Source: a virus
DNA: 35,260 bases
Virus record (IMG/VR): IMGVR_UViG_3300031576_000197
Coordinates: 1 to 35,260 of that record
Direction: 5' to 3' (one strand)
Shown here: one piece after another, positions 1-35,260 of the stretch
Position numbering within the stretch: the stretch's first letter is position 1
Layout of the letters: each line of letters starts with the position of its first letter
Program-made: the position numbers and the translations under genes
The notes under the pieces: generated by a model
Databases searched by the model: none
Told to the model about the DNA's origin: nothing
Seen by the model: only the letters and a program-made list of their open reading frames with translations

Positions 1-92
1 TGGAGTGCGTTGAGTGCGTGGAATGCGGGGAATGCGGGGAGTGCGTGGAATGCGTTGAGTGCGTGGAATGCGGGGAATGCGGGGAGTGCGTG
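1..92. repeat. Terminal direct repeat (copy 1 of 2), circular overlap
   Basis: Bases 1-92 are identical to bases 35169-35260. The overlap lies entirely inside the 9-bp minisatellite and joins the 5' half of a gene (from 34932) to its 3' half (to 972) in one frame. This fits a circular or circularly permuted molecule linearised by the assembler at a low-complexity repeat. A true short direct terminal repeat is less likely because a gene would be split across it. The repeat could also have misled the assembler about copy number. Confidence 0.85.
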
Positions 93-252
93 GAGTGCGG
101 GGAGTGCGTGGAGTGCGTGGAATGCGGGGAATGCGGGGAGTGCGTGGAGTGCGGGGAGTGCGTGGAGTGCGTGGAATGCGGGGAATGCGGGGAGTGCGTG
201 GAATGCGAGGAGTGCGTGGAATGCGAGGAATGCGTGGAATCCGTGGAGTGCG
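1..252 (+). repeat. 9-bp minisatellite, 3' portion (28 units)
   Basis: There are 28 consecutive in-phase 9-bp units of the form DKGARTGCG, each encoding X-(S/N)-A with X = W, G, L or R. A single unit (235-243) has CCG in place of GCG. Higher order is visible: a 45-bp block (X order W-G-G-W-L) occurs twice near the start and a 54-bp block (W-G-G-W-G-W) twice at 64-171. With six more units at 35115-35168, the array has 34 units (306 bp). It is G-rich and clearly more GC-rich than the surrounding genome. All three forward frames are open because the unit has no stop in any frame. Confidence 0.95.
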
Positions 253-972
253 CTTGACTATGATTTTGATTGCTGTGTTTTTGCGTTTGAGTACTGCGAA
301 AATCCTGATGCCAACTTGCCTCCAAATAATAATGATAAGATTTATCTTGAATATTGTGAATTGCTTATGCGGGCCAAAGAGGCTGGTCTTGGATACAGAG
401 TCGAGTGGGATGATTGTCTGTATCTTGTTCCAACTCCTGTGGTAAGGATCGACAATCAGAATCGATATCATTCTGAATCCGAGCCTGCAATAAGATGGAA
501 GGGAGGCAGAGAATTTTGGTTCTACAAGGGCGTTAAAGTTAATGAACAGATTATTCTCAGGCCAGAAACCCTAACAAAGAAAGATGTAATCGAGGAGGGG
601 AACGAGGAAGTCAGGCGCGTTATGATTGAGCGAATTGGCAACGAAAAGATAAACAAATTAATGGATTTCGAAGAAGTGTCAAAAGATTCGTGTGGAAGGC
701 TTTTACGGTGCCAGATCGGTCAAGACACCTACACGTACGCTCATGTTATTTGTCCATCAACAGGACGTGAGTATTATTTGCAGGTTCCTGCTACGCTTCA
801 AGATTCAATCGACGCAATGGCCCTTGCCAAAGCTACGACGTGGGAAGAGTGGAGTGAGAATGAGGAGCGAGTAATCTGGCCGAAATCTGGTACAATGGAG
901 ACCTGCCAACAAGCGGTGGCGTGGACATTCGGCGTTAAAGCAGAGGATTTTACCCCTATTTACGAAACTTAA
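1..972 (+). CDS. DUF6745-like protein, 3' part (C-terminal 323 residues)
   Basis: Together with 34932-35168 this forms a 402-residue protein. Residues 62-163 are the tripeptide-repeat tract and 164-402 the conserved core. I recognise features of the DUF6745 family: a [11 protein letters not shown] segment near residue 235, [11 protein letters not shown] near 282, and a C-terminal QAVAWTFGV near 383 followed by a short acidic end with a final ET. The biochemical role of the family is unknown to me. The GHSH-motif gene lies just upstream, and I recall similar small genes next to DUF6745 genes in cellular genomes (from memory, not searched). No signal peptide or membrane segment is visible, so it is probably cytoplasmic. 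The linear start inside the repeat is an artefact of where the contig was cut. Confidence 0.75.
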
Positions 973-30031: not shown

Positions 30032-30844
30032 ATGCCTTCCAACATTAAGATAGCGGTGAGCTCGGAAGGCAGCCGCTATCTTTTTTATTTAAATCTTATG
30101 CTAGACCTCACAGATCATATTATACGCAAAGCGTACTGTCTCAGCCTACACGAGTATGCAGTTCTAATAGAAATCTATTACTTGTCGCACAACAACAAGT
30201 TTGGCGGGTGGTGTATCAAAAGTAAAGACAACATAGCCGAAACGCTTGATATTGGTCGAGATACTGTTTTTAGCGCAATCAAGAAACTCGAAGCAATTGG
30301 ACTAATAGAACGCGGCACCGAGTTAAAGAACACTATAAGAACAACTGATAAATTCAATTCCGTAGTATCTGCTCGTTCTGGATACGCCTTTTCCGTAAAG
30401 ACTGAAGACGAAGAAATTAAAACAGTAGCTCCTGAACATTCCCGACTCACCGTCGGAAAAACCGACGCCCTACCGTCGGAAAAACCGACGCCCACCGTCG
30501 GAAAAACCGACGCTAATATATACATTAAATATATACAAGATAATATATCTTCTAAAGAAGATACTAAAATTAGAACCTATGGGAACCAGGATATCTCTAA
30601 AATGCTTGATGCTCTTAAGCGAACTATAGGGATAGATGCCTTTGCCGATTCCTCTATAGAGAGAAACATTGCAAAGCATTGTGTTACGTTAATGGATAAA
30701 CTCGGCGTAGAAGAATTTCGCCGCCGGCTTGACATAATCCTTGACGATGGTTTTAAGCGGAGAAACTGCAATCGAATCAAGTATGTCTATAACGAGATCA
30801 AGGGATTTATTGACATAAAATCAAATAGCATTAATTCTTACTAG
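30032..30844 (+). CDS. Winged-helix replication initiator-like protein (270 aa)
   Basis: Residues about 38-105 form a winged helix-turn-helix (LHEYAVLIEIYYLS, KSKDNIAETLDIGRDTVFSA, then IGLIERGTELKNTIRTTDKF), the type used by phage O-like and plasmid Rep initiators. A linker of about 140-165 encodes three 18-bp iterons, so the gene contains its own binding sites as lambda O does. The C-terminal 80 residues are helical and basic (DGFKRRNCNRIKYVYNEIKG), possibly a helicase-loader contact region. It probably recruits host replication proteins, as no phage helicase or polymerase is present. First gene of the early arm with its own promoter; a general regulator is an alternative. Confidence 0.65.
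   Translation: MPSNIKIAVSSEGSRYLFYLNLMLDLTDHIIRKAYCLSLHEYAVLIEIYYLSHNNKFGGWCIKSKDNIAETLDIGRDTVFSAIKKLEAIGLIERGTELKNTIRTTDKFNSVVSARSGYAFSVKTEDEEIKTVAPEHSRLTVGKTDALPSEKPTPTVGKTDANIYIKYIQDNISSKEDTKIRTYGNQDISKMLDALKRTIGIDAFADSSIERNIAKHCVTLMDKLGVEEFRRRLDIILDDGFKRRNCNRIKYVYNEIKGFIDIKSNSINSY
30450..30512. repeat. Three 18-bp palindromic iterons, likely replication origin
   Basis: Three identical copies of CCGTCGGAAAAACCGACG at 30450-30467, 30473-30490 and 30495-30512, with 23- and 22-bp spacing (about two helical turns). Each is an inverted repeat (CGTCGG/CCGACG) with an A5 centre. Copies 1 and 3 are read as TVGKTD, copy 2 in another frame as PSEKPT, so the identity is conserved at the DNA level, not the protein level. 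An AT-rich stretch follows immediately (30514-30580), as in lambda ori where O iterons lie next to an AT-rich region. They are likely the binding sites of the initiator in whose gene they lie. Confidence 0.75.
30514..30580. other. AT-rich DNA-unwinding candidate next to the iterons
   Basis: Directly 3' of iteron 3, with runs such as TAATATATACATTAAATATA and a small inverted repeat ATCTTC-TAAA-GAAGAT near 30547-30562. In origins of the lambda and plasmid iteron types, an AT-rich region beside the iterons melts first. The stretch is also coding (YIKYIQDNISSKEDTKI), which uses AT-rich codons. Confidence 0.5.
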
Positions 30845-34401: not shown

Positions 34402-34598
34402 GAGATCTAGGACATCGCATCAAGGAACTAATGGACAAACGCAAGATGAGGATATCTGATTTGGCTGCTCTGATGAAGGTACACCCACAAACGGTTAAGG
34501 CTTGGAGGGCTGGAGCTGTACCGTTACCGAAACACCGCAAACTACTGGTTATAATCTTCGAGACAAAGAACATTTTTTATGTAAAGGAAAACAATTAA
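34398..34598 (+). CDS. XRE-family helix-turn-helix regulator (66 aa)
   Basis: Residues 16-38 (MRISDLAALMKVHPQTVKAW) form a clear XRE/Cro-type helix-turn-helix, with the recognition helix near HPQTVKAWRAG. The protein is Cro-sized, with no C-terminal oligomerisation or cleavage domain. It could control the operator-like palindromes at 29818, 31461 or 33246 (inference). It starts in an ATGA overlap with the preceding gene. Confidence 0.7.
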   Translation: MRDLGHRIKELMDKRKMRISDLAALMKVHPQTVKAWRAGAVPLPKHRKLLVIIFETKNIFYVKENN

Positions 34599-34612
34599 CA
34601 ACTTTAAAAAAT

Positions 34613-34921
34613 ATGAAAATATATGCAAGACACGGAGATGTAGCCTTTATCAAGGGCAAGAACGACAAAAAGTTCACCAAGAAAAAGGATAAGAAGGTTG
34701 CTCTTGGCGAAGTTACCGGCCATTCGCATCAATTCTTAATGGATGGTGTGGATGTTCTGGTAGATGTATCTCAACCTAACTGGGGAAGAGCCCTTGAGGT
34801 AGAATCTCCAGTCGTGATAACTCACGAAGAACATAAGCCGATTCCGTTTGAACCAGGAGAGTATGTTGTAAGACACCAACGAACTTACTCCAGTGTTGGG
34901 CTGTCAAAGGTACTAGACTAA
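34613..34921 (+). CDS. GHSH-motif protein next to the DUF6745 gene (102 aa)
   Basis: RHGDVAF (6-12), GEVTGHSH (32-39) and THEEHKPI (70-77), then a Gly-Glu-Tyr-x-Val-x-x-x-Gln-Arg segment (GEYVVRHQRTY). Four His residues (37, 39, 71, 74) could bind metal. I recall proteins with RQGDVLx, GEVTGHAH and HEEHxPI adjacent to DUF6745 genes in many bacteria; their role is unknown to me. The ATG at 34613 is chosen over an upstream start because of the leader ACTTTAAAAAAT. It starts only 10 bp before the DUF6745-like gene's ATG region, implying joint expression. Confidence 0.65.
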   Translation: MKIYARHGDVAFIKGKNDKKFTKKKDKKVALGEVTGHSHQFLMDGVDVLVDVSQPNWGRALEVESPVVITHEEHKPIPFEPGEYVVRHQRTYSSVGLSKVLD

Positions 34922-34931
34922 TTAAAACAAA

Positions 34932-35260
34932 ATGAATTACTCACAAAAAACAGCTGATCTAATTGAGAGAATGTGTAGAAATGTGGAGCGACTTGATTTT
35001 GATCTTAAGAAAGGCTTGGCCGAGGAATTGATTATGAAGACGTATGATCTATTTGGCCTCAAAAGACCTTTAAAAGTAGTTTGGTGTATAGATATTTTTG
35101 ATGAAAAGTTTGCGAGGAATGCGAGGAATGCGTTGAATGCGAGGAGTGCGTGGAGTGCGGGGAGTGCGTGGAGTGCGTTGAGTGCGTGGAATGCGGGGAA
35201 TGCGGGGAGTGCGTGGAATGCGTTGAGTGCGTGGAATGCGGGGAATGCGGGGAGTGCGTG
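34932..35260 (+). CDS. DUF6745-like protein, 5' part (continues at 1-972)
   Basis: The first 61 residues ([20 protein letters not shown], then a helix and [11 protein letters not shown]) match the N-terminal helix-then-VVWC/SP pattern I recall from DUF6745 proteins. The tripeptide repeat begins at residue 62 (35115). Joining at 35168/1 keeps the same frame, giving 402 residues. Leader AATTAAAACAAA has no Shine-Dalgarno. The repeat sits between the N-terminal segment and the conserved core, like a flexible or fibrous insert. Confidence 0.7.
35115..35260 (+). repeat. 9-bp minisatellite, 5' portion (6 unique units plus overlap)
   Basis: In-phase units from 35115: X residues R-R-L-R-W-G (35115-35168) and then the units that also appear from position 1. 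AGG (R), TTG (L), TGG (W) and GGG (G) are the only X codons, each one or two changes from the others. The edges of the array carry the R/L units and the centre W/G, as if it has expanded from the inside by slippage. Confidence 0.9.
35169..35260. repeat. Terminal direct repeat (copy 2 of 2)
   Basis: Identical to bases 1-92, so the unique circular length is 35,168 bp if the overlap is real. The junction can slide in units of 9 bp within the minisatellite, so the true array length may differ by several units. Confidence 0.85.

Follow-up and report, generated by a model that had tools for sequence, protein, structure and literature searches.

A 9-bp coding minisatellite within a phage DUF6745 protein is probably kept by selection on the peptide that it encodes

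The stretch of viral DNA analysed here, hereafter the window (35,260 nucleotides, IMG/VR record IMGVR_UViG_3300031576_000197), starts and ends inside a tandem repeat with a 9-bp unit, and the question is to which gene this array belongs and what maintains it. A preliminary description, made from the sequence alone, had seen in it a hypermutable minisatellite coding for a tripeptide repeat. The present analysis indicates, with a probability of roughly 0.6, that the array is a coding minisatellite which occupies the central part of a phage DUF6745 protein and is maintained by selection acting on the amino-acid sequence. The best reading of the compared sequences is a combination of unit copying with selection for a mixture of Trp, Gly and Arg (W/G/R) at one residue. 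The preliminary description had captured half of this feature: it missed the DUF6745 protein whose gene is interrupted at the ends of the contig, the conservation of the array across phages and the singular behavior of the first base of the unit.

The window is the genome of a tailed phage, as judged by its matches to a terminase and a major head protein. The record is circular and its cut falls inside the repeat, positions 35169-35260 being an exact copy of positions 1-92 (92-bp end overlap). After removal of this overlap, the array gene reads 34932→35260/93→972 on the plus strand as one open frame of 403 amino acids. The encoded protein comprises, in this order, a conserved N-terminal domain (amino acids 1-60, positions 34932..35111), 34 X-(S/N)-A units (amino acids 62-163) and a C-terminal DUF6745 domain. 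The first part of the array lies at 35115..35260, which includes the duplicated end, and the second part at 1..252, the total of 34 units being obtained once the 92 bp are subtracted. The N-terminal domain is 56-75% identical to that of six phage relatives carrying the same fusion of array and DUF6745. The C-terminal domain (253..972, stop codon included) belongs to Pfam DUF6745 (PF20530) with E=4.1e-17 and 62.6 bits, the curated cut-off being 27. The circular join is sound, because the N- and C-terminal halves are joined alike in relatives with uncut contigs. The exact number of units is unsafe, since arrays of this kind are frequently broken or collapsed during assembly; contigs L066, L082, L089 and L137 end, like the window record, in or beside the array. 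At a distance from this gene, three tandem units of 22-23 bp, each containing an inverted repeat (GTCGG AAAAA CCGAC), were detected by Tandem Repeats Finder at 30448-30513; they are iteron-like and lie in an ORF (30032-30844) which resembles a helix-turn-helix replication protein.

Tandem Repeats Finder reports periods of 9 (28.0 copies, 85% matches) and 54 (4.7 copies, 91%) at 1-252, and periods of 9 and 45 at 35111-35260. The units are in frame and their length is a multiple of three, and both the program and the unit codons confirm the 9-bp coding minisatellite that had been described. The 34 units, or 102 residues, had been placed at positions 1-252, which hold 28; the number is nevertheless recovered when the circular ends are joined. 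The X codons of the window are TGG (15), GGG (11), AGG (5) and TTG (3), the Ser/Asn codons AGT (18) and AAT (16), and the Ala position is GCG in all units but one, which is CCG. The proposed higher-order blocks of 45 and 54 bp are present in the middle of the array (longest repeated run of 10 units, p=0.0025 against shuffles), and the internal expansion suggested at the same time is supported as well. Edge units had been considered more diverged. AGG and CCG are indeed located at both edges, but AGG cannot be regarded simply as divergence because units with this Arg codon are ordinary in the relatives.

A single-protein search using the C-terminus of the window returned no viral relative; alignment and repeat-pattern searches succeeded. 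Relatives were first found by searching DNA for a degenerate form of the repeat, then in larger number with alignments of the two flanks, and the alignment of the DUF6745 region retrieved 19 DUF6745 loci in viral contigs. Eighteen distant IMG/VR relatives share the layout of N-terminal domain, X-Ser-Ala array and DUF6745, with 14-32 units each. The comparison set consists of 19 arrays spanned on both sides, window included, of 14-34 units each and 462 units in total, these lengths being derived from assemblies that often break at arrays. No near DNA match to the window was found in the phage records, and a scan of genome contigs with the phage-subfamily alignment gave no confirmed relative. 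The matches listed from a repeat-pattern scan of the genome contigs were mostly low-complexity frames outside recognisable genes.

Unit number and order differ in every relative (14-34 units), in line with the comparison across related phages that had been proposed as a check. Four arrays, including that of the window, show block duplication, with longest repeated runs of 8-10 units (p 0.002-0.0125). Within one phage population, the hypermutability claimed at the outset is only suggested, by the sequences of L072 and L082. These two contigs represent the same phage from two samples and are the only near-identical pair. About 3.6 kb to the right of the array are identical and all 3 differences, among them a base-1 substitution that turns AGG into GGG, fall inside the array, at a contig edge where they may be an assembly effect.

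A further pattern concerns the position of the variation within the unit. In most arrays eight of the nine bases are essentially invariant and base 1 varies, giving TGG and GGG plus either AGG or CGG. Over the 462 units, X is R in 144, W in 140, G in 140 and another residue in 38 (W/G/R in 424). Averaged over the 19 arrays, entropy reaches 1.48 bits at base 1, as compared with 0.07-0.22 at the other bases; at the third base of the Ser and Ala codons it amounts to 0.07 and 0.08 bits, and base 1 is the higher in 19 of 19 arrays. Eleven of the 19 arrays show no variation at all at bases 4-9; a few (L067, L076 and L079) follow the rule more loosely. Between phages, the codons of the fixed part differ. 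All six Ser codons (AGC, AGT, TCA, TCC, TCG, TCT) and all four Ala codons (GCA, GCG, GCT, GCC) are found as the majority codon of one array or another. The flank tree requires at least 6 changes of Ser class, between AGY and TCN, on well-supported branches, and the class differs within the sister pairs L064/L094, L068/L077, L070/L080 and L069/L078. Even in the closest pairs, the four-fold sites of the flanks are near saturation (25-58% identity), whereas those within an array are nearly always identical. Homogenisation within each array is therefore rapid and much younger than the divergence of the phages and, the codons being different from one phage to another, it is the peptide and not the DNA which is conserved. 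The same design written with different codons in 18 relatives argues in turn for a pattern kept by selection at the protein level.

The same data allow the alternatives to be weighed. A DNA-level element, such as an origin, a packaging site or a recombination site lying in a gene by chance, could be invoked on account of a strand rich in G and poor in C in the window and of the contigs that break at the array. However, the DNA unit is wholly different between phages (TCCGCA, AGTGCT, TCTGCG and others) for the same peptide and, apart from the GG in the X codons, no DNA motif is conserved across arrays; this explanation is rejected. A targeted mutator, comparable to a diversity-generating retroelement and rewriting base 1 of each unit, would explain why this base exceeds by far every other one in variability in all 19 arrays. 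It is nevertheless very unlikely, since the substitutions are not restricted to template adenines, base 1 being T, G and only one of A and C and the other adenines of the unit mostly constant, and since no RVT_1 (reverse transcriptase) match exists in the window record, which may be incomplete. The Arg codons are also difficult to reconcile with recurrent random mutation: AGG and CGG occur together in 1 array of 19, as compared with 16.3 expected from shuffles. Arg being encoded by one or the other and almost never by both, the Arg units of one array share one founder. This pattern points to copied founder units rather than to site-specific hypermutation.

Neutral slippage in a tolerant linker, with the array as a by-product of replication and X drifting freely, deserves a closer look. 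The low complexity of the array, its unfolded state in structure prediction, the differences in length and order among all relatives and the occurrence of DUF6745 relatives devoid of array are all compatible with it. Under such drift, however, synonymous sites should vary like base 1, and yet base 1 requires at least 41 substitutions and the two synonymous sites together 5 (binomial p=5e-15). Drift would hardly retain Ser across the AGY/TCN switches either, or limit X so largely to W, G and R when Leu, Ser and Cys also lie one step from TGG. When neutral block copying was simulated, no more than 1.7% of runs arrived at the state that 13 of the 19 real arrays show; these simulations are crude (fixed block sizes, selection absent) and are to be taken as a guide only. 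Neutral slippage is consequently strongly disfavoured and improbable. At the opposite extreme, an RVD-like modular code can be imagined by analogy, in which each W, G or R would contact one target element and reshuffling would retarget the protein. Repeats that are identical but for one hypervariable residue, a scrambled order and a balanced composition are what such a code would produce. It remains doubtful given a unit of only 3-4 residues, and given the four arrays with higher-order repeats, which resemble block duplication and not a chosen order. A broader proposal would see in the phage DUF6745 arrays a one-residue code that can be reshuffled (W/G/R/E in each unit of 3-4 residues) and is tuned in order and length against host or rival-phage targets; the copying of units would generate it, and it would have arisen de novo on many occasions. 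This proposal is similarly tentative and rather improbable.

In the preferred reading, a coding minisatellite under protein-level selection, units would be copied and deleted in blocks by slippage or unequal recombination, erasing synonymous variation, and selection would repeatedly restore and keep the mixed W/G/R set at the single variable residue. The array might then constitute an arm of variable length, possibly helical, between two folded domains. Such a putative arm could offer its partner a tunable mixture of side chains, some aromatic, some small and some basic; the product of the neighboring TGHxH gene described below is perhaps a candidate for this partner, or else a host factor.

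The helical nature of such an arm, suggested by the preliminary description, is possible but weakly supported. In the AlphaFold2 prediction (L064 with 17 sequences), the N-terminal domain and DUF6745 are well folded but the array is unfolded, with a pLDDT of 21-33. In its favor, X shows a weak periodicity across the 19 arrays, near 70 degrees per unit, 60 being expected for an alpha-helix (p=0.035 corrected for all angles, 0.28 without the four block-repeat arrays). A long helix, with a pLDDT mostly of 33-72, is predicted by AlphaFold2 for the L209 family, in which spacings of 3 and 4 residues are mixed. Searches with Foldseek and VIA-align gave no fold match of use (best E 0.22; best Z 4.8).

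The TGHxH gene is located directly upstream of the array gene (34613..34921, plus strand). Its listed ORF extends from 34502 to 34921 with a TTG start, and the ATG at 34613 is likely the true start. The protein carries the signature GDV...GExTGHxH...HEEH...QREY, whose His/Glu pattern suggests a putative metal site; no Pfam or NCBIfam family was found above cut-off. Homologues stand beside DUF6745 in many phage relatives, in Microcystis phages and on plasmids of Deinococcus and Streptomyces; a similar gene adjoins DUF6745 in Methylobacterium. The window ORF itself matches the DUF6745 neighbor in L010, L012, L007 and L328. On L009, L010 and L012, which are plasmids of Methylobacterium, Deinococcus and Streptomyces, the gene pair is found next to genes of the STM4011/4012/4014/4015 families, an uncharacterised cluster. 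Among 529 bacterial genomes from two phyla, 13 DUF6745 matches were obtained. The array is absent from the readable bacterial proteins and from those of the Microcystis phages, and it is therefore not essential to the DUF6745 domain. Neither the array protein nor its TGHxH neighbor nor the other array families gave a match in PADLOC. The literature search returned no paper on DUF6745 and nothing close on coding repeats in phages, and gp174/gp175 do not appear in the main text of the Ma-LMM01 transcriptome paper (PMC5780444).

The synonymous sites can be read here as a clock within the array itself. They show a young, homogenised array in which one residue nonetheless stays mixed in every lineage, and the array is for this reason a clean test of the interplay between selection and repeat turnover. 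The finding also points to an uncharacterised phage module of two genes, the TGHxH protein and DUF6745, shared with bacteria, and the array would account for the breaking of several viral contigs at this gene.

Comparable arrays occur in other viral proteins. At the same place, other phage DUF6745 proteins contain tetrapeptide arrays of the form [W/G/R/E]-S-(S/N/Q/E)-L, namely S-S-L in L006 (28 units), S-Q-L in L456, S-N-L in L395 and S-E-L in L446, and a T-D/S-L array is present in L376; in L006 and L456 the variation is restricted to the first codon. W/R/E/G-S-A(A) arrays are also borne by an Imm5_like (PF21805) protein (L140:11923-12588, minus strand) and a DUF7666 (PF24703) protein (L003:7939-8574), both in viral contigs; these differ by their C-terminal position, their mixed 3/4 spacing and their domains. 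C-terminal W/R/E-S-A(A) arrays exist as well in an unnamed viral protein family (L209:8050-8967, L177, L143, L183), that of L209 being nearly a strict heptad (ARSAAWS). Within Pfam DUF6745, the phage protein shares its C-terminal domain and TGHxH neighbor with Deinococcus and Streptomyces plasmids and Microcystis phages, whereas the bacterial members that were read have ordinary non-repetitive sequence at the position of the array. A collagen-like triple helix was discarded, every third residue being fixed as Ala and not Gly. The repeats of TAL effectors are near-identical and differ at a designated hypervariable residue, which is also true of the phage array; they are helix-turn-helix units of 33-35 residues, however, while the phage unit has 3-4 residues, one of which varies. 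Coding minisatellites, or variable-number tandem repeats, are known in proteins such as mucin and filaggrin, with which the phage array has in common in-frame tandem units, block duplications and concerted evolution. It differs from them in varying almost only at one base of the unit, with its synonymous sites homogenised, and in that many lineages have rebuilt the same peptide from different codons.
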